A stretch of 64,000 nucleotides of DNA, taken from contig NZ_BMNB01000007.1 in assembly GCF_014646235.1 (NCBI RefSeq), positions 1 through 64,000 on the forward strand. The letters run 5' to 3'. The notes beneath the pieces were generated by a model. The model saw only the letters and a list, made by a program, of their open reading frames with translations, did not search any database and was not told where the DNA came from. The position numbers and the translations under genes are program-made. Below, piece by piece: positions 35,698 through 44,527 of the stretch. Every line of letters begins with the position of its first letter. Within the stretch, counting starts at the first letter, position 1. The DNA comes from Micromonospora sonchi. Lineage in GTDB: Bacteria > Actinomycetota > Actinomycetes > Mycobacteriales > Micromonosporaceae.

Positions 35698-36651
35698 TTG
35701 ACTCACGTTAGACCGGCGGCCACGGTTGCGCAGTGGGTGGAGGTGCATCGGCTGGCGGTGGCGGGCCGGGAGCCGGTAATCGCCCGACACGTCGGGCACA
35801 GGGTGGCGAGGGTGTGGCTGCGCACGTCTCGGTTCGCGGATGTCGAGGCTCTCGCGACTGCGACCCTGACCCTCGGCCCGGACGCTGGCGCCTTCTATGA
35901 CCTGGGGTGGGCCCAAGCCGCCACCGGGCGACCCCGGCCAGCCCTCAAAAGCTACGAGCAGGCGCTGCATCTGCACCGCGAGGCCGACGACCACGGCAAC
36001 GAAGCCGCCACCCTCACCAGCATCGGCGCCATGTACGACGGGCTCGGGGATCGGCAGCAGGCCCTGACCTACTACCGGCAGGCCCTGCCCATCGCGCGGG
36101 AGGTCGGTGACCGTGCCGGCGAAGCCGCCGCCCTCAACAACATCGGGCGCGTGTACGACGGGCTTGGGGATCGGCAGCAGGCCCTCGCCTACTACCGGCA
36201 GGCCCTGCCCATCATGCGGGAGGTCGGTTATCGCACTGGCGAAGCCGTCACCCTCAACAACATCGGCCTGGCGTACGACGGGCTCGGGGATCGGCGGCAG
36301 GCGCTTACCTACTACCGGCAGGCCCTACCCATCCGGCGGGAGGTCGGCGACCGCGCCGGCGAAGCCACCACCCTCAACAACATCGGTTTAATCCGGTTTC
36401 AGGAGGGTGATCATGCTGGGGCGGAGAATGCGTTCGTTGAAGTTCTTGAGGTCTTCCGCACGGTCGGTGATCGCGGATCCGAGGCCATGGTCAGCTTCAG
36501 CATGGCCGTCCTGCTACTGCGGATGGCGCGAGTGGACGATGCCATCGGGGTCCAGCGCCGAGCGGTAGAGCTAGCCGAGGAGACGAACCATCCAGCGCTG
36601 GACGAGATGCAGGCGTTCCTCATTGAGCTTGAGCAAACAAAGAAGGGATAG
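35698..36651 (+). CDS. TPR-repeat protein 1 of the CHAT/NB-ARC operon
   Basis: A 317-residue protein. Residues about 10-80 form a conserved helical N-terminal part (WVEVHRLAVAGREPVIARHVG), followed by tetratricopeptide repeats with a regular period of 40 residues from residue 100 (units from 35995, 36115, 36235 and 36355), each centred on LNNIG-x-YDGLGDRQQAL-type sequence, and a diverged C-terminal segment. The TTG start is supported by GGAGG five bases upstream. It is the first gene of a four-gene operon and a paralogue of the gene at 39262. TPR arrays bind proteins or peptides; here it is probably the recognition or scaffolding part of an immune complex. Confidence 0.88.
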   Translation: MTHVRPAATVAQWVEVHRLAVAGREPVIARHVGHRVARVWLRTSRFADVEALATATLTLGPDAGAFYDLGWAQAATGRPRPALKSYEQALHLHREADDHGNEAATLTSIGAMYDGLGDRQQALTYYRQALPIAREVGDRAGEAAALNNIGRVYDGLGDRQQALAYYRQALPIMREVGYRTGEAVTLNNIGLAYDGLGDRRQALTYYRQALPIRREVGDRAGEATTLNNIGLIRFQEGDHAGAENAFVEVLEVFRTVGDRGSEAMVSFSMAVLLLRMARVDDAIGVQRRAVELAEETNHPALDEMQAFLIELEQTKKG

Positions 36652-36654
36652 CCG

Positions 36655-37005
36655 GTGGGAACTGCCGTACTTGAGGTGTCAGGGCCGAACGCCGCGCGTT
36701 CGGCTGCGGAACTACGCGCCGTTCTTGCCGCGAACGCCGGGCCTGGCGATGAGGTGTCCCCGGTTGAGGTGCGGCGTTCCGCAGAGCTGGTGATCGCGGT
36801 CATCGGGCTGGTGTTCGGCGGGGTTGGTGCGGCCAAGACGATCTGGGACTGGTGGCATTCCCGCCGTCCGGACGGGGTTGCCGTCACGGTCCTGCTCAGC
36901 GACGGCACCCGGGTCGAGCTGTCCAACGCCAGCAGTGGCGAGCTGAAGATCGCTTTCCAGCAGGTCGAGTCGCGGCAAGCCGAGGACGGGGACCAGCGTG
37001 GGTGA
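36655..37005 (+). CDS. EACC1-like small membrane protein
   Basis: A 116-residue protein with an N-terminal soluble part, one membrane helix (about residues 42-64, LVIAVIGLVFGGVGAAKTIW) and a C-terminal beta-rich part (VAVTVLLSDGTRVELS). This order matches the effector-associated constant component EACC1 found in NTP-dependent conflict systems of multicellular bacteria, where it accompanies proteases and STAND ATPases; the assignment rests on pattern recognition. The GTG start is four bases after the TPR gene stop, with AAGAAGGG upstream, and the end overlaps the CHAT gene. It probably anchors the complex at the membrane. Confidence 0.68.
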   Translation: MGTAVLEVSGPNAARSAAELRAVLAANAGPGDEVSPVEVRRSAELVIAVIGLVFGGVGAAKTIWDWWHSRRPDGVAVTVLLSDGTRVELSNASSGELKIAFQQVESRQAEDGDQRG

Positions 37006-39265
37006 GATGAGCGGGTACGAGTTGGAGGTCTTCGAGCAGACCTCCGACTTCTCCGAGCTGCGCCTGTCGACCGATGGGGGTCCGCCGAAGACCCGCGGTT
37101 TGGACAAGGCGGCTATCGACCGGCTGATCGAGGTGGTGGAACGCGATTACAGCCAGCACGCGGTGGCGCAGAAGGTGTTCGACGCGCCGCAGCTACGTGA
37201 TCTCGGTGCGAAGCTGGCTGCCTTTCTCGATGGCGATGAGCGGTGGCTGACCCAGGTGCTGGACCGCCCTGCCGGCACCACGCTGCGCATCACCGCCGAG
37301 AAACGGCTGCGGCACCTGCCCTGGGAACTGCTCGCCGCAGGCGACTCGCATCTGACCGTCTCCACCAGTGCACCGCTGCTACCGGTGCGGTCCGTCGGCA
37401 CCAACGCGGCGCTCAAGGGGCCGGTCGAGCCCGAGAACCGGCCGTTGCGGGTGCTGTTCATGGCCACCTCTCCGGAGGGTGTCGAGCCGGTGCTCGGCTA
37501 CGAGGCGGAGGAGGCAGCCATCCTGGAGGCCACGACCCGAACCGGAACCGAATTGGTCGTGGAGGAGAGCGGCACCCTGGAAGGGCTTCGCTTCGTCAGT
37601 CTCGACTACGGCGTGGGACACTTCGACGTCCTGCACTTGAGCGGCCACGCCACCGTCGGCGCGGACGGTCAACCCGTCTTCCTGGTGGAAAACGAGTTCG
37701 GTGGGCGCGCCTACGCCACCGCTGACCAGATCGCCCAGGCGATGGGCGGTCGCTGGCCCCGCTTGGTCTTTGTCTCCGGCTGCCTGACCGCGAACTCCCC
37801 TGACTCCGGTGCGTTCCCGTCTATGAGTGAAAGCCTGGTCCGCGCCGGAGCCCCGACTGTGCTGGGGTGGGCGCTGCCGGTCGGTGACGTCTCCGCGACC
37901 GAGTTCGCCGCCAAGCTCTACCAGTCGCTGGCCGCCGGGGAGGCCCTCGACCGGGCCGTGGTCGAGGCGCGCCAGCACCTGTACGCGAACAAGCGCGGCA
38001 ACTGGCATCTGCTGCGCGTCTACGCCGACAGATCCCCGCTCGCCCCCATGGTCACGCCGCTGCTCACCAAGTGGCGTGCCCGGATCCAGATCCGCCCCGC
38101 CGACCAGGAGTTCCTGGACCCGCAGACCCAACTGTCCCGAGTCGCCTCCCGCGCCGCGTTCGTCGGACGGCGGCGGGTCATCCAGCGCTGCCTGCGTACC
38201 CTCAAACAACCGCTCGGTGGCGACGGTGCGGCGGAGGCACTGGTCCTGGCCGGTATGGGTGGTCTTGGCAAGAGCAGCCTCGCCTCCCGGATGCTGGAAC
38301 GCATGCCCACCCACCAGCGTGCCGTCTGGTATGGCCGCGTTGACCTGCCCAAGTTCCGGGAACTCACCACCAAGGTCGACTTCCCCGGCATGGAGCAGCA
38401 GATCGAAGCGACCAAGCTGCTCGACAACAACGATGCCCCCCTGCCCGTCCGCCTACGTCACCTGCTGCACGTCGACGGACCGCTCGGTCAGACTCCCTGC
38501 CTGTTCGTGTTCGACGACTTCGAGGACGGCAACCTCGACGAACGCGACGGCGGGCACGTGCTGGCCCCGGAGATGGCCGACATCCTCCCGGCCCTGCTGA
38601 AGGCCATCCGCGACACCGGCAGCCCCAGTCGGGTCATCATCACAAGCCGCTACCGCTTCCCTCCACCGGTCGGCGCCGGCATCGTCGTCGAGTCACTGGA
38701 AACTCTCACCGACATCGAGCAGGCCAAGAAACTCGCGAACCTGCCTAACCTGCGCCCCGACTCCCCGGTCGACCCCGACATCCGCGAACGCGCCGTCGAG
38801 GCCGCGGCTGGCAACCCCCGCCTGCTCGACTGGCTCGACCTGATCGTCGCCGCCCCCGACCTCGACATCGACGGCCTCATCACCGCCATCGAGGCCGAAG
38901 CCGACCGATTCCGCCGGGAAACCATCCTCGCGAAGAACCTCCTCGGCTCCCAACCCGCCGAGTTGCAGAAGATGCTCGCCAAGGTCAACGTCATCGAACT
39001 CCCCGTCCCCGCCGACACCGTCCGCGCCGTCCACGACCACCCCGACGCCACCGTCCACGTCGAACGCGCCGTCCAACTCGGCCTGATGGAACACGGCACC
39101 GACCCGGAAACCCGCCAACCCCGCTACTACGTCTCCAACGTCCTGCGCCCCCTCATCCGCCCCCTACTCACCGACGACGAGCACACCCAAGCCTGCGCCG
39201 CCGCCGCCCGATCCCTCTACCAACTCTGGATCACCGACCCCGCCACGCCCGGACCCGCGTCATGA
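36998..39265 (+). CDS. CHAT protease - NB-ARC (STAND) ATPase fusion
   Basis: A 755-residue two-module protein. The N-terminal ~350 residues form a CHAT (caspase-like) protease with the catalytic dyad H217 in LHLSGHATVG and C262 in VFVSGCLTAN. Residues about 390-640 form an NB-ARC-type P-loop ATPase with Walker A GMGGLGKS (K425), Walker B FVFDDF (D506, D507) and the sensor-like IITSRYRF. The C-terminal ~110 residues are likely winged-helix. The start overlaps the EACC1 gene; ATG 37007 is an alternative to GTG 36998. The architecture is that of an NLR- or caspase-like switch: ATP-dependent sensing releasing a protease, for immunity or cell death. Trigger and target are unknown. Confidence 0.92.
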   Translation: MGEMSGYELEVFEQTSDFSELRLSTDGGPPKTRGLDKAAIDRLIEVVERDYSQHAVAQKVFDAPQLRDLGAKLAAFLDGDERWLTQVLDRPAGTTLRITAEKRLRHLPWELLAAGDSHLTVSTSAPLLPVRSVGTNAALKGPVEPENRPLRVLFMATSPEGVEPVLGYEAEEAAILEATTRTGTELVVEESGTLEGLRFVSLDYGVGHFDVLHLSGHATVGADGQPVFLVENEFGGRAYATADQIAQAMGGRWPRLVFVSGCLTANSPDSGAFPSMSESLVRAGAPTVLGWALPVGDVSATEFAAKLYQSLAAGEALDRAVVEARQHLYANKRGNWHLLRVYADRSPLAPMVTPLLTKWRARIQIRPADQEFLDPQTQLSRVASRAAFVGRRRVIQRCLRTLKQPLGGDGAAEALVLAGMGGLGKSSLASRMLERMPTHQRAVWYGRVDLPKFRELTTKVDFPGMEQQIEATKLLDNNDAPLPVRLRHLLHVDGPLGQTPCLFVFDDFEDGNLDERDGGHVLAPEMADILPALLKAIRDTGSPSRVIITSRYRFPPPVGAGIVVESLETLTDIEQAKKLANLPNLRPDSPVDPDIRERAVEAAAGNPRLLDWLDLIVAAPDLDIDGLITAIEAEADRFRRETILAKNLLGSQPAELQKMLAKVNVIELPVPADTVRAVHDHPDATVHVERAVQLGLMEHGTDPETRQPRYYVSNVLRPLIRPLLTDDEHTQACAAAARSLYQLWITDPATPGPAS

Positions 39266-40230
39266 CCACCCTCACCCAGTGGGTGGAGGTGCATCGGCTG
39301 GCGGTGGCGGGCCGGGAGCCGGTGATCGCCCGGCACGTCGGCCGCGGGGTGGCGAGGGTGTGGCTGCGCACGTCGCGGTTCGCGGATGTCGAGGCCCTCG
39401 CGACTGCGACCCTGACTCTCGGCCCGGACGCCAGCGCCTTCTATGACCTGGGGTGGGCCCAATCCGCCACCGGCCGGCCCCGGCTCGCTTTGGAAAGCTA
39501 CGAACAGGCCCTGCGCCTGTACCGCGAGGTCGACGACCACGGCAACGAAGCCGCCACCCTCAACAACATCGGCCACGTGTACGACAGGCTTGGGGATCGG
39601 CAGCAGGCCCTCACCTACTACCGGCAGGCCCTACCCATCGCGCGGGAGGTCGGTGACCGGGCCGGCGAAGCCGCCACTCTCAACAACATCGGCCTCGTGT
39701 ACGGCGGGCTTGGGGATCGGCAGCAGGCCCTTACTTACTACCGGCAGGCCCTACCCATCCGGGGGGAGGTCGGTGACCGGGCCGGCGAAGCCGCCACTCT
39801 CAACAACATCGGCCTCGTGTACGGCGGGCTTGGGGATCGGCAGCAGGCCCTTACTTACTACCGGCAGGCCCTACCCATCCGGCGGGAGGTCGGTGACCGG
39901 GCCGGCGAAGCAGTCACCCTGAACAACATCGGCCTCGTGTACGGCGGGCTTGGGGATCGGCAGCAGGCCCTTACTTACTACCGGCAGGCCCTACCCATCC
40001 GGCGGGAGGTCGGCGACCGCGCCGGCGAAGCAGTCACCCGATACAACATCGCAATGATCCATCGCGGTGAGGGAGATCTCGACAAGGCGATCGGCGAGCT
40101 CGAACTCGTCGTCGACCTCGACCGCCAAGCGGGCCACCCGGACCTCGCATCCGACACTGCCATGCTCGAACAAGTACGCCAAGAACGAGTAATCGCTCAG
40201 CGACCTGATCCGGGACCCGGCCAGGGCTGA
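39262..40230 (+). CDS. TPR-repeat protein 2 of the CHAT/NB-ARC operon
   Basis: A 322-residue paralogue of the protein at 35698, starting at an ATG that overlaps the CHAT gene stop in ATGA. The N-terminal ~85 residues are nearly the same as in TPR protein 1 (WVEVHRLAVAGREPVIARHVG), followed by about five 40-residue TPR units from 39541, three of which are almost identical, and a divergent C-terminus with ELVVDLDRQAGHPDLA. It lacks the C-terminal segment of protein 1. Near-identical repeats suggest recent expansion and a changing binding surface. Converges on the DUF397 gene. Confidence 0.88.
   Translation: MTTLTQWVEVHRLAVAGREPVIARHVGRGVARVWLRTSRFADVEALATATLTLGPDASAFYDLGWAQSATGRPRLALESYEQALRLYREVDDHGNEAATLNNIGHVYDRLGDRQQALTYYRQALPIAREVGDRAGEAATLNNIGLVYGGLGDRQQALTYYRQALPIRGEVGDRAGEAATLNNIGLVYGGLGDRQQALTYYRQALPIRREVGDRAGEAVTLNNIGLVYGGLGDRQQALTYYRQALPIRREVGDRAGEAVTRYNIAMIHRGEGDLDKAIGELELVVDLDRQAGHPDLASDTAMLEQVRQERVIAQRPDPGPGQG
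39541..40035 (+). repeat. Tandem 120-base TPR-coding DNA repeats
   Basis: Units start at 39541, 39661, 39781, 39901 and 40021 (the last partial). Units at 39661 and 39781 differ at one of 120 bases; 39781 and 39901 differ at six. Related units lie in TPR protein 1 at 35995, 36115, 36235 and 36355. Identity at synonymous sites means recent duplication or gene conversion. Confidence 0.95.
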
Positions 40231-40287
40231 AACGCCGTCGACGCTCAGGTGGTGGAGATCGGCGAACACGGCATGCATGGCCGCAGC

Positions 40288-40476
40288 TCAGGCGCGGGCG
40301 CCGTCCGTCTTGATGCCGTTGACGAAGGTGCCCCAGGCCGCAGGGTCGAAGCTCAGGGTTCCGGCGGTGGGGGCCTTGGAGTCGCGTACGTCAATTTCGG
40401 CGCCTCGGTCGCGGACCTCGACGCACTGGCCGTTGCTGCCGGAACGGCTCGACGTGCGCCAGACGTTACGCTCCAT
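40288..40476 (-). CDS. DUF397 protein
   Basis: A 62-residue DUF397 protein (VWRTSSRSGSNGQCVEVRD, then VRDSKAPTAGTLSFDPAAWGTFV). These small proteins are encoded beside XRE regulators with a DUF5753 domain in filamentous actinomycetes and behave like toxin-antitoxin or development regulators (the BldB/WhiJ-like pairs). The ATG overlaps the end of the upstream regulator remnant (40466). Because its partner appears deleted, this gene may be an orphan. Confidence 0.9.
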   Translation of the reverse strand: MERNVWRTSSRSGSNGQCVEVRDRGAEIDVRDSKAPTAGTLSFDPAAWGTFVNGIKTDGARA

Positions 40477-40645
40477 GCTCGCTCAGCTCCTTGATGAACT
40501 TCATCGACTCGGCCGGCGATCTGGCCAGCATCCTCAGATTGTCGTCCGCCGCCGACAGCCGCGCCAAGTGACGGCTCCGACCGCCGACATCGGTCCGCAG
40601 GGACGCCTCAGACAGGATGGTGGGCAGCCGCAGCGTGCTGGGCTG
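40466..40645 (-). pseudogene. Remnant of an XRE/DUF5753 regulator
   Basis: A frame ending at TAA 40466-40468 encodes about 59 residues without a start codon. It begins like the DUF5753 core (ILSEASLRTDVGG) and jumps to the DUF5753 C-terminal end (RMLARSPAESMKFIKELSEHG), so most of the domain and the whole HTH part are missing. The overlap with the DUF397 start is the normal arrangement of intact pairs. The upstream end is cut by the XRE-DUF5919 gene. Confidence 0.6.
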
Positions 40646-40647
40646 GC

Positions 40648-41391
40648 TCAGTCCTGTGGTTCAGTGGGCCTGCCATCGGCCCACAGCGACTCGAAGTGCT
40701 CCACGTACCGGTCGAATACTCCGCCGTCCTGCGCACGCCGCAGGTGCAGCGTCACAGAGTCCTGCCCGAGCCCCGCACCGATGTGCGTGGCAACGATGGC
40801 TTCGTCGTCGAAGACCCACACGGACATGGCGATATGGCGATCAGACAGCCGGACCGGAATCACGGCGTCGACTTTGCCGATCTCTGCCTGGGTCATCGCG
40901 ATACGAGTCGCCAACGTGAGCGGAGTCGCTTCCAGCCGATCTCGCTCGGCCGTGACTCGGCTGTCCGGGTCGCCGAGAAGGAACCGCAGGTCGGCCCCGG
41001 CGTTGACCTTCGCTTCGAGGGTTGCGGCGGCGTCGGGCACTTCCAGCCACACGAAGTAGCTGGTGTACCCACCAAACCACAGCCGAGTGCCAGCACGCCC
41101 GATCGCCTCACGAAAGACCGCTCGGGGAAGGTCGGCGCGGTGAGGGTACATGCCGACCAGTTCCCGATCAGCCCCTACCTTTGCAGCGCGTCGGATGATC
41201 TCAGGCCACAGCATCCCTACATCTTCGCCCAGTACCTCGGCCGCACGCACCCTTGAGCGGGGATGCGGCACCCGTCCTCGACTGACCCACCGCTCTACGG
41301 TCTTTGCGTCCACATCGCACCGTTGTGCGAGGTCAGCTGCGGTCAGGCCAGCTGCCACCATCGCTCTCCTGAGTCCATCGTTCCGCGCCAT
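40648..41391 (-). CDS. XRE regulator with DUF5919 / PLD-like domain
   Basis: A 247-residue protein with an N-terminal Cro/C1-type helix-turn-helix (residues about 5-60, LTAADLAQRCDVDAKTVERWVSRGRVPHP) and a C-terminal DUF5919 domain reminiscent of phospholipase D-like folds (FGGYTSYFVWLEVP, then DAVIPVRLSDRHIAMSVWVFDDEAIVATHIG). Such proteins probably sense a ligand through the C-terminal domain. It is divergent from the small membrane protein and XRE-TPR pair, with about 150 bases between, and lies beside the CHAT/NB-ARC operon, which it may regulate. Confidence 0.85.
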   Translation of the reverse strand: MARNDGLRRAMVAAGLTAADLAQRCDVDAKTVERWVSRGRVPHPRSRVRAAEVLGEDVGMLWPEIIRRAAKVGADRELVGMYPHRADLPRAVFREAIGRAGTRLWFGGYTSYFVWLEVPDAAATLEAKVNAGADLRFLLGDPDSRVTAERDRLEATPLTLATRIAMTQAEIGKVDAVIPVRLSDRHIAMSVWVFDDEAIVATHIGAGLGQDSVTLHLRRAQDGGVFDRYVEHFESLWADGRPTEPQD

Positions 41392-41546: not shown

Positions 41547-41705
41547 ATGAGGAGAATCGTGGCCTTCGTGGTCGTGTCGGTCGTACTCGGCGGGTTGGTA
41601 CCGGGTTTCCTGGCCGGGCTGTTTGCGTTTCGGGTGAAGTCGCGGTGGTGTCCGCGCTGCGGGGAGTCCACCCACGCCGCGCCGCCGGTGCAGGGGGACC
41701 GATGA
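41547..41705 (+). CDS. Small single-helix membrane protein with CxxC
   Basis: A 52-residue protein with one membrane helix (VAFVVVSVVLGGLVPGFLAGLFAF) and a short cytoplasmic tail holding CPRC. ATG 41547 or GTG 41559 can be the start; the second has AGGAG four bases before it. The stop overlaps the ATG of the XRE-TPR regulator in ATGA, so the two are coupled, and a thiol-sensitive membrane partner of the regulator is one possibility. Function unknown. Confidence 0.55.
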   Translation: MRRIVAFVVVSVVLGGLVPGFLAGLFAFRVKSRWCPRCGESTHAAPPVQGDR

Positions 41706-42853
41706 ACCGCCCACACCGGCGCGACCACAACTCCGTGCCCATCGGCCGGCGGGTCGCCGAGTTGCGGGCCCGCCGGGGCATGAGCCAGCAGGCGTTCGCC
41801 GACCGGCTCGGCAAGTCGAAAAGCTGGGTCGACAAAATCGAGCGCGGCGTACGCAAACTCGACCGCTACTCCGTCATCCGGGAGATCGCCGACGTGCTGC
41901 GCCTCGACCCGGAACTTCTCCTGGGTCCCCGCCAGCCGCCACCCACCGCACCCAGCCTCGACGGCGTCGACGGGGTGCGTGCCGCCCTCGCCCGCTACGA
42001 CGCTCGATCACAGCGCACCGTCACGGCGGACCAGGCGCGCCGGCAGGTTGCGTACGCCTGGATGGCCTACCAGCACGCCCGCTATCCGCACCTGCTCGAC
42101 GCCCTACCCGCCCTGCTCGACACCACCCACGGCACCCGGAGCCTGCTGGTTTCCACGTACCGGATCGCCGCCGCCGTGCTGGTCAAACTCGACCATGCCG
42201 ACCTCGCCTGGCTCGCCGCCGACCGGGCCGTCACCACCGCCGCTGGCGGCCCCACCCTCACCGCCACCGCCACCACCGCTGTCGGGCAGGCCCTACGCGC
42301 CCTCGGCCACCACCATCTCGCGCTCACCGCCGCCCTCAGCGCGGCGGACACCGCAGACGACGACACCGTACGCGGAACTCTGTTTCTCCAGGCCAGCCTC
42401 GCCGCCGCCGGCAGTGGCGACTGCCGCAACGCCCACGACCTGCTCGACCATGCCGCTGCCCTCGCCGACCGACACACCCGCGACACCGACCCGCACCACA
42501 TCGGCTTCGGGCCCGCCGCCGTCCAGTCGGCTCGCTTCCTCGCGGCCCACCACCTCGGCGACACGATCGAGGCCATCCACCGACACGAACACGCCATCCG
42601 AAGCGACGGCTGGCGACGACTACCGCCCGAACACCGCGCCGCCCATCTCATCGACGCCGCCCACGCCTACCTCGACACCGGCGACTCCATCCGAGCCGGC
42701 CAAGCTCTGCTCGACTCCGACAGGATTGCGCCCGCCGAAGTCCGCAGCCGACCTGTCGCCCGTACTCTCCTCGCCCAGGTCATCCAAGGCGGGCCGGCAG
42801 CGGCCGGCGTCGCGCGACTGGCCACCATCGTCGGCCTGACCCGACAACCCTGA
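41702..42853 (+). CDS. XRE-family regulator with TPR-like C-terminus
   Basis: A 383-residue protein with a Cro/C1-type HTH (residues about 15-70, VAELRARRGMSQQAFADRLGKSKSWVDKIERG) and a long helical region of degenerate tetratricopeptide-like repeats. Such proteins are numerous in Streptomyces and Micromonospora and often respond to peptide or small-molecule signals. ATG 41702 overlaps the preceding small gene. Its target is unknown; the accessory operon upstream is a candidate. The 178 bases after it hold no gene. Confidence 0.87.
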   Translation: MNRPHRRDHNSVPIGRRVAELRARRGMSQQAFADRLGKSKSWVDKIERGVRKLDRYSVIREIADVLRLDPELLLGPRQPPPTAPSLDGVDGVRAALARYDARSQRTVTADQARRQVAYAWMAYQHARYPHLLDALPALLDTTHGTRSLLVSTYRIAAAVLVKLDHADLAWLAADRAVTTAAGGPTLTATATTAVGQALRALGHHHLALTAALSAADTADDDTVRGTLFLQASLAAAGSGDCRNAHDLLDHAAALADRHTRDTDPHHIGFGPAAVQSARFLAAHHLGDTIEAIHRHEHAIRSDGWRRLPPEHRAAHLIDAAHAYLDTGDSIRAGQALLDSDRIAPAEVRSRPVARTLLAQVIQGGPAAAGVARLATIVGLTRQP

Positions 42854-43031: not shown

Positions 43032-44471
43032 TCAGACCGAGATCCGGCCGGCGCCCGCGCCGCCCGTCACGATCGACTTCACGCTGCTCGCGCTGTCCAG
43101 GGTGTACGCGTACGGGATGCCGGCCACGCTGCCGCCGGTCTGCCCGCTGCCCGAGTTGACGAAGTGGTTGTTGCGGGCCACCAGCGAACCCGGGCCGGAG
43201 TCGCCCTCACCACGGTGGAACGGGTCGGGGGTGTTCTCGAAGTAGTTCCCCTCGACCAGCACGCCGGCGTTCATGGTGGAGGCCACGCCGTAGCCGCGCA
43301 CGTTGCCGTAGTAGTTGTTGTACACGTGCACCGGGTTGCCGAAGCGGACCCGCGGGTTGCGCTGGTTGCTGCCGTCGAACCAGTTGTGGTGGTAGCTCAC
43401 CCGCAGCCGTCCGACGTCCTGGCTGCCGTTGTCGTCGCTGTGTCCGAGCAGCATCGTCTTGTCGTGGCTGAAGACCCGGTTCCACGACACGGTGATGAAG
43501 TCCGAGCCGCGCTTGATGTCCACCGCGCCGTCGTAGCCGTTGCTGAAGGTGTTGTGGTCGATCCAGATGTTGGTGGCGGACTGCTCCACGTTGATCGCGT
43601 CGTCGCCCCAGTTCCGGAAGGTCAGGTTACGGATGATCACGTTGCGGTCACCGTTGATGGTGAAGCCGCAGCCGACGATGGTCGCACCCGCGTTGCCGAG
43701 GATGGTCTTGTTCGACCGGACGCGCAGCATCCCGGAGCAGTTGATGGTGCCGGAGACCCGGATCACCGCCGCGCTGGTGGAGTTGAGCGCGCTGGTCAGG
43801 GCCGAGGCGCTGGTGACCGTGGTGGTGCCGGCGTTGCCGCCGCCGCTGGTGCCGCCGTTCTGAGTGGCCCAGCCGACCAGGCCGGTCTGCGGGGCCGGGT
43901 TGGGTGGGGGAGTGCTGCCGCCGCCCAACTTGATCATCTGCCAGCGCTGGTTGGCGCCGTCGAGATCGGCGTACTGCGAGACCATCCCGCCGTCGGCGGT
44001 GGACCATTCCCACAGGTCGAGCGCCTTGCCGCTGTGCCGGTTGATGAACCGGACGTCGCCGTTGGCGGAGTCGCGCAGCGCCCAGTGCTGCTTGGTGTCG
44101 CTGCTCGCCGTGATCTGGGTGACCTGCACCCCGTCGTTCGAGTTCGGCACCGTGACGACCTTGCCGGAGTGCCGGTTGCGCAGCTGGTAGTAGCCGTTGC
44201 CCACGTCGACGAACTGGAACTGCTGGTTGTTGCCGTCACCGCGGGTGAACTGGCGGATCTCGCCGCCGTCGGCGGTGGACCAGTTCCACAGGTCCATCGC
44301 CTTGCCGCTGTTGCGGTTGACGAACACGTAGTAGGCGCCGGTGTCGACGGTGGCTGCGGCGGCGGGGGCGACGGTCGCCACGACCGCCGCCGCCGGCAGC
44401 GCGACCGCCGCCGCGGCCAGCGCCGCGAGCCGCCGCGCCGGACGACGCTTGACGATTGCGAGCACGGTCAT
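43032..44471 (-). CDS. Secreted pectate lyase (PL1) with ricin-type carbohydrate-binding module
   Basis: A 480-residue secreted enzyme. A twin-Arg-free signal peptide (about residues 1-40, ending near APAAAA) is followed by a ricin-type beta-trefoil module (about 45-180, with repeated YYVFVNRNSGKAMDLW and RWQMIKLG units) and a right-handed beta-helix pectate lyase domain of family PL1: calcium ligands around NIWIDHNTFSNGYDGAVDIKRGSD and the catalytic Arg in NPRVRFGNPVHVYNNYY. It cleaves polygalacturonate by beta-elimination, for use of plant cell walls. GAGGAGA precedes the ATG. Two operator-like sites lie upstream. A palindrome (43020-43035) covers the stop codon and may end transcription. 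Confidence 0.92.
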   Translation of the reverse strand: MTVLAIVKRRPARRLAALAAAAVALPAAAVVATVAPAAAATVDTGAYYVFVNRNSGKAMDLWNWSTADGGEIRQFTRGDGNNQQFQFVDVGNGYYQLRNRHSGKVVTVPNSNDGVQVTQITASSDTKQHWALRDSANGDVRFINRHSGKALDLWEWSTADGGMVSQYADLDGANQRWQMIKLGGGSTPPPNPAPQTGLVGWATQNGGTSGGGNAGTTTVTSASALTSALNSTSAAVIRVSGTINCSGMLRVRSNKTILGNAGATIVGCGFTINGDRNVIIRNLTFRNWGDDAINVEQSATNIWIDHNTFSNGYDGAVDIKRGSDFITVSWNRVFSHDKTMLLGHSDDNGSQDVGRLRVSYHHNWFDGSNQRNPRVRFGNPVHVYNNYYGNVRGYGVASTMNAGVLVEGNYFENTPDPFHRGEGDSGPGSLVARNNHFVNSGSGQTGGSVAGIPYAYTLDSASSVKSIVTGGAGAGRISV

Positions 44472-44491
44472 TCTCCTCGTGGTCGAAGGTG

Positions 44492-44505
44492 GGTAAGCGT
44501 TTTCC
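44492..44505. promoter_or_regulatory. LacI-type operator upstream of pectate lyase
   Basis: GGTAAGCGTTTTCC fits the LacI-family pattern GG-x-AA-x-CG-x-TT-x-CC at all fixed positions. It lies 21 bases before the pectate lyase ATG, where a bound repressor would block expression until a sugar is present. Confidence 0.6.
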
Positions 44506-44527
44506 CCAGGCAACCACAGATATCGGT

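Follow-up and report, generated by a model that had tools for sequence, protein, structure and literature searches.

Among described systems, the core of the locus analysed here comes closest to System 4, which the accessible text of Kaur et al. 2020 presents as an actinobacterial conflict system in which a gene for EACC1 (Effector Associated Constant Component 1) is followed by a second gene whose product has a caspase-superfamily peptidase at its N terminus and a variable module, STAND being one of those named, at its C terminus (PMC7159879). In that text, EACC1 has a single transmembrane helix and a possible sensor role, and the system is prevalent in actinobacteria, with sporadic proteobacteria as the only other bearers that it names (PMC7159879); a follow-up study on System 4 is also available (PMC8195603). 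Fungal NLRs with highly conserved repeats of the HET-E/HET-D type, as far as Dyrka et al. 2014 could be consulted, resemble the present locus in combining a STAND NTPase with near-identical repeats that are shuffled within and between genes and in concentrating replacement change on the binding face; unlike them, the cassette described here is bacterial, uses a CHAT protease as its effector, and carries sensor arms that are detached and present in several copies per locus (PMC4986451). Avs and bacterial NACHT anti-phage proteins share with it an N-terminal effector, a STAND centre and a C-terminal repeat sensor, whereas here the sensor is unfused, its repeats recombine, and an anti-phage role is putative (PMC10907252, in the part available). 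The same source describes sensors of STAND and other conflict systems that multicellular bacteria diversify with retroelements; these are C-terminal lectin-type domains altered by error-prone reverse transcription, in place of which the present locus has TPR repeats diversified apparently by recombination (PMC10907252).

The window, that is, the whole stretch of 64,000 nucleotides of Micromonospora sonchi that was analysed (positions 1 to 64,000 of contig NZ_BMNB01000007.1), is GC-rich and carries four tightly packed plus-strand open reading frames at 35698-40230, where the initial annotation had placed them. The first gene, G1 (35698..36651; 317 aa; TTG start behind GGAGG), is the 5' TPR arm and, by leader and cap profiles, consists of a leader, 120-bp repeats and a 5'-type C-terminal cap. 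G2 (36655..37005; 116 aa) encodes EACC1; G3 (36998..39265; 755 aa), the start of which might alternatively lie at the ATG at 37007, joins two domains in one protein: a CHAT protease at about residues 85-335, with H217 and C262, and a STAND NTPase with Walker A K425, D506/D507 and R551. G4 (39262..40230; 322 aa) is the 3' TPR arm, with a leader and repeats as in G1 and a 3'-type cap. The TPR identity first given to both outer genes is confirmed by Pfam TPR_12 matches of 171.6 bits for G1 and 272.4 bits for G4. G2 and G3 overlap by 8 bases, and G3 and G4 by the 4 bases ATGA, so that both of the overlaps claimed earlier are found; the gap between G1 and G2, given as 4 bases, measures 3.

G3 matches the Pfam CHAT profile with 78.0 bits (cut-off 24) over residues 85-335 and AAA_16 with 36.7 bits (cut-off 32.6), while NB-ARC (PF00931) reaches 12.6 bits, under its cut-off of 23.5, and nSTAND1 19.6 bits, under its cut-off of 27.1. 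The Walker A motif reads GMGGLGKS, with K425, and H217, C262, K425, D506 and R551 are invariant in 52 of 52 aligned sequences, an alignment that spans several phyla (actinobacteria, cyanobacteria, Polyangium, Acidobacteria, Pirellula, an Anaerolineales MAG and others); the His-Cys dyad of a CHAT protease and the Walker A and B residues of a STAND NTPase are thus all in place. Among the 120 close relatives listed of 885, H217 and K425 are kept in all and C262 in 118; the exceptions are P0116, a fused copy with serine, and P0057, with alanine or an unread residue, since unread residues were set to A. The fused CHAT-STAND-TPR copy in which serine replaces the catalytic cysteine (P0116, presumably the L122 copy) lies in a genome that also carries a four-gene-like locus (L121).

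The AlphaFold2 model of G3 has a mean pLDDT of 88.2, and its best Foldseek matches, at E 1e-9 to 1e-6, include CED-4, Apaf-1, SAVED-CHAT, a STAND-TPR protein, plant NLR resistosomes, Csx29 and separase; whole-chain TM-scores are just 0.2-0.3, each match covering one part of the chain. The ATPase groups with CED-4, Apaf-1 and plant NLRs in this search, although the NB-ARC label of the initial annotation falls short at the profile level; NLR/Apaf-like NTPase matches of the kind expected for STAND proteins are present. Judging from the model, G3 appears to unite a caspase-like protease with an apoptosome-like NTPase on one chain. Profiles, kept residues and fold matches together uphold what had been proposed for this gene: a CHAT domain with H217 and C262, a P-loop ATPase with K425, and a caspase- and NLR-like switch built from the two. 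Csx29 (TPR-CHAT) of Craspase, matched as 7zoq and 8eey, is likewise a CHAT protease with TPRs. In Csx29 the TPRs precede the CHAT domain, a STAND NTPase is not known to be present, and the partner is a CRISPR effector.

G2 matches EACC1 (PF19953) with 24.6 bits, barely above the cut-off of 23.6, which bears out, by a narrow margin, the EACC1-like identity proposed for it. Since G2 is followed directly by a 3' gene whose product begins with a caspase-superfamily peptidase and has a STAND-type module C-terminal to it, the EACC1 + CHAT pair is of a known kind, System 4, and the core of the cassette is not new, such a pair having been described, in the accessible text, as a two-gene conflict system (PMC7159879). 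This raises the question as to whether the locus is simply a System 4 pair with the TPR proteins as a mere scaffold, membrane sensing and activation of the CHAT protease both falling to EACC1. Such a role would suit the transmembrane helix and possible sensor function published for EACC1 (PMC7159879, as far as available), with which the top hydropathy window of G2 (2.1, residues 45-63) agrees. However, the model of G2 (pLDDT 90.6; near 90 in four of five models) folds these same residues as a strand and a helix of a ferredoxin-like fold, AlphaFold2 being membrane-blind, and the membrane label given to G2 is therefore uncertain: hydropathy favours it and the structure model does not. EACC1 is also the part most often lost; it scores at least 50 bits next to the module in 20 of 31 actinobacterial loci and is missing or reduced there in 11 of 31, and may thus be non-essential. 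A scaffold role, moreover, leaves the groove-focused replacement change described below unexplained, and we regard this reading as improbable. The earlier proposal that the protease acts at the membrane through EACC1 is doubtful, given the structure model and the 11 loci.

EACC1 is gone or shortened near the CHAT gene, with the TPR arms retained, in L009, L012, L013, L115, L116, L117 and L124, the shortened version in L116 still scoring above 50 bits; L020 has its EACC1 match on the far side of the 3' arm rather than upstream. In the outgroups, a purpose-built profile detects an EACC1-like gene in 30 of 61 loci within the 700 nt that precede the module; 29 of these loci are cyanobacterial and one is from Anaerolineales, and two of the loci lacking such a gene have less than 600 nt of upstream sequence. 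The outgroup proteins score 90.8% against the actinobacterial set in a profile comparison, and the Pfam EACC1 model reaches only 4 of 26 of them.

In comparison with System 4 as the accessible text presents it, related pairs here also occur in cyanobacteria, beyond those listed there, and the TPR arm is a separate and duplicated gene that flanks the pair on both sides (PMC7159879). The open-access literature searched yielded no description of an EACC1-CHAT core flanked by detached, paired TPR arms, in keeping with the earlier impression that two paralogous TPR genes around the effector are undescribed; this TPR part of the cassette appears to be new. PADLOC assigned no catalogued system to the cassette and returned just general TPR and other loose models, and BovA at E 0.003.

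A total of 885 relatives of G3 at E <= 1e-20 among 7993 scored candidates, together with a recurring neighbourhood, make the cassette more than a chance arrangement. The contig scan drew on the best 80 of 157 relatives, and among those found, the close ones belong to Micromonospora and its kin; with few candidates scored per genome, G3 was detected at the same threshold in 22 of 200 genomes of the family, 17 of which have a copy of at least 67% identity. Including the window, 31 actinobacterial loci were compared: upstream arms, whether co-directional or divergent, occur in 27 of them, downstream arms also in 27, and arms on both sides in 23, and the full co-directional gene order of the window is present in 13. 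The gene-order survey called for by the initial annotation thus finds that the neighbourhood recurs, and neither decayed catalytic residues nor a missing neighbourhood, which it had named as grounds for abandoning the idea, is what the relatives present.

In three Micromonospora loci (L005, L006, L007), the cassette occupies a common chromosomal site whose flanks are 83-94% identical in their main pieces; the adjoining gene was taken by eye for miaB, and the left flank of the site has no match in the other 27 actinobacterial stretches. Downstream of the cassette in the window lie, on the minus strand at 40280-41391, a short gene, presumably DUF397-like, beside a helix-turn-helix gene (40648-41391); a further helix-turn-helix gene (41690-42850), relatives of which occur on the opposite strand 3.7-4.9 kb upstream of further CHAT loci (L015, L016, L019, L118, L119); and, on the minus strand at 43032-44513, a gene for a secreted protein that by eye has a ricin-type lectin and pectate lyase look.

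Each arm is built around tandem 120-bp repeats on the plus strand, with TRF reporting 3.2 copies at 86% matches in G1 (36000..36386) and 4.2 copies at 95% matches in G4 (39546..40051). The shared leader was sought by profile in 92 stretches: 61 outgroup loci, 30 actinobacterial loci and the window itself. Of the outgroup loci, 52 have the leader directly after the CHAT-STAND module, and in 47 it falls within the open reading frame of the CHAT start; it was not found in the other 9, one of which (L040) is truncated at the end of its contig. Among the actinobacterial loci, the reading frame mostly stops after the module and the leader opens a new gene, with single-ORF CHAT-STAND-TPR fusions in L008, L016 and L122. 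Because the leader is fused to the module in most outgroup loci and in these three loci, G4 is taken to be the split-off C-terminal arm of G3. By sequence comparison, G4 corresponds to the C-terminal arm fused to CHAT-STAND in relatives, and G1 is a paralogue of this G4-type arm; G1 is tied to G2 in turn because the upstream TPR arm and EACC1 form a single open reading frame in L010 and L017. The largest set of arms found is that of L123, where a single CHAT-STAND gene is followed by four TPR-arm genes in tandem, at +2255 to +6623 counted from the CHAT start. The upstream arm is divergent in L014, L015, L016, L019 and L021, and the three of these that can be placed in the cap tree carry a 3'-type cap.

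The two arms of the window form a mosaic. Over 656 nt of leader and repeats, G1 (35731..36386) and G4 (39277..39932), both on the plus strand, are 89.8% identical by blastn and sliding identity, after which identity falls abruptly to about 50% or lower at the caps. Across species, 23 of 24 5' caps fall on one side of the cap tree (100/100) as against the 3' and divergent caps, L125 being the exception, in a comparison that left out 9 of the 62 TPR genes as cut by contig ends, broken in frame, N-containing or too divergent (L022_C5_1). In the leader tree, position in the locus groups sequences no better than shuffled labels do: the 3' label requires 22 changes against a shuffled mean of 20.9, and the 5' label 18 against 19.7. 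The two trees were computed from few columns, and bootstrap values had not converged in either. Taking one upstream and one downstream gene per locus in the 18 of 31 loci with both on the plus strand, the identity of 5' and 3' leaders of the same locus exceeds the mean 5'/5' identity between loci in 18 of 18 cases, and exceeds the best match elsewhere in only 5 of 18. Exact 120-nt copies amount to 15 pairs within genes and 3 pairs between genes of a locus, with none among the 46459 pairs between loci. Exchange of leaders and repeats between two old genes fits this pattern because independent duplication would yield like caps. That leaders and repeats have been exchanged among the genes of a locus while the caps stayed apart is well supported by these sequence trees, and the window mosaic agrees; the repeats of both arms are apparently kept alike by recombination, each arm keeping its own C-terminal cap across species.

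Magliery and Regan found TPR positions 2, 5, 9, 12, 13, 33 and 34 to be the most variable and exposed on the concave face, and the groove positions used here were fixed beforehand from that source, as far as accessible (PMC1261162). Repeat units, 311 of them from 62 genes, were set in register, those scoring under 90 against our consensus being excluded. From our alignment to the TPR consensus, we take TPR positions 2, 5, 9, 12 and 13 to be unit positions 4, 7, 11, 14 and 15. The six unit positions that differ most within genes are 4, 7, 11, 14, 15 and 33, and position 33, which lies outside the canonical five and is the most variable after position 11, may be a second contact site of this long 40-residue repeat. 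In 616 same-locus pairs at 85% identity or more from 26 loci, identical-unit pairs left out, pN/pS is 2.26 at the five groove positions against 0.49 at the rest, as a count over non-independent pairs and not a recombination-aware likelihood; in the same pairs, exposed convex positions give 0.57, packing positions 0.25 and position 33 a ratio of 3.28, and the figure for leaders is 0.39 (22 pairs). The observed groove pN is reached by 24 of 100000 random sets of five positions, and pN is at least equal to pS at the groove in all 18 loci with three or more pairs, L007 being a near tie. Within-gene pairs with loci resampled give 2.22 (1.81-2.73) at the groove and 0.47 (0.41-0.54) elsewhere.

By identity bin from 80% up, the actinobacterial groove ratio is 1.47, 2.02, 2.71 and 2.64; from 70% up, the outgroup ratio is 0.97, 1.18, 1.36 and 1.34, so that the excess seen in outgroups disappears at 70-80% identity. 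Since GC-rich codons can lower pS, and third-position GC is 0.87-0.90 in the actinobacterial bins and 0.42-0.47 in the outgroups (about 0.46 in the two closest bins), the smaller outgroup figures are the safer ones. In the closest outgroup bins, positions 11, 33 and either 4 or 7 lead, with 14 and 15 not among the top. The other TPRs of this genome, taken as a control, give a groove ratio of 1.47 on just 5 pairs, too few to use. By counting, then, and not by likelihood, replacement change is focused on the binding face, and it outpaces silent change at the groove positions predicted for the repeats. The selection pattern at the groove lends support to the idea, put forward in the initial annotation, that TPR arrays sense or hold the ligand.

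The same repeats could in principle be shaped by neutral slippage and gene conversion at a tolerant groove, the locus being a regulator of development or metabolism like the CHAT protein HetF or the STAND regulator MalT. The maltose-system regulator structure 8bob is indeed among the G3 fold matches, the outgroup excess is modest, and groove positions are variable in TPRs generally, as the available text of PMC1261162 has it; the HetF NCBIfam model also scores on G3, but with 43.6 bits against a cut-off of 1200 it is far off. Neutrality, however, predicts a pN/pS near 1 at most, as opposed to the 2.0-2.7 observed in the three closest actinobacterial identity bins, and the exposed convex positions stay at 0.57; we hold this explanation to be unlikely.

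The cassette is, in our judgement, probably an NLR-like switch: on binding a fast-changing ligand, the TPR arms would free the NTPase, whose oligomerisation would in turn activate the protease. The leader would dock each arm onto the NTPase in place of a covalent link, and the two cap types would tell the arms apart, one serving for example as the ligand sensor on the NTPase and the other as the partner of EACC1. Ligand bound in the TPR groove would then open the STAND protein and allow the NTPase to oligomerise; the assembled CHAT domain would cut a partner, possibly EACC1 or G3 itself, and this cleavage would lead to growth arrest or death of the infected cell. The repeat proteins are likely interchangeable sensors that would switch the protease on in a manner close to that of fungal immune receptors. 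The likeliest ligand is a phage or other foreign protein, recognition of non-kin cells being the main alternative.

In that alternative, which we place second to phage defence and consider rather unlikely, the TPR arms would recognise proteins from adjacent hyphae or filaments, and the protease would kill mixed cells, as fungal NLRs do in heterokaryon incompatibility. Many of the named relatives belong to filamentous genera of actinomycetes and cyanobacteria. Allorecognition would also account for the signs shared with fungal NLRs, near-identical repeats and change on the concave TPR face, the fungal precedent itself concerning this role rather than phage defence in the text consulted (PMC4986451), and a role of this type is raised in the accessible part of PMC10907252 for other sensors of multicellular bacteria. 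Against it stands the occurrence of G3 in only 22 of 200 family genomes at E <= 1e-20, a patchiness like that of accessory defence genes. Phage defence is our first reading of the switch.

More tentatively, the cassette may be a modular bacterial apoptosome, in which a constant CHAT-STAND core is served by a small expandable family of detached, repeat-swapping, groove-diversifying TPR arms whose caps set docking on the NTPase or on EACC1, so that the repertoire would change without a reverse transcriptase. Because the arms are detached, sensor and switch can be separately expressed, removed and purified, which makes recognition directly testable. If the reading as an NLR-like switch is right, bacteria have reached the recipe of the fungal NLRs, a fixed cell-death switch combined with recombining sensor repeats that are pressed to change at their binding face, and multicellular bacteria would have, besides diversity-generating retroelements, a second route by which to diversify their putative sensors.
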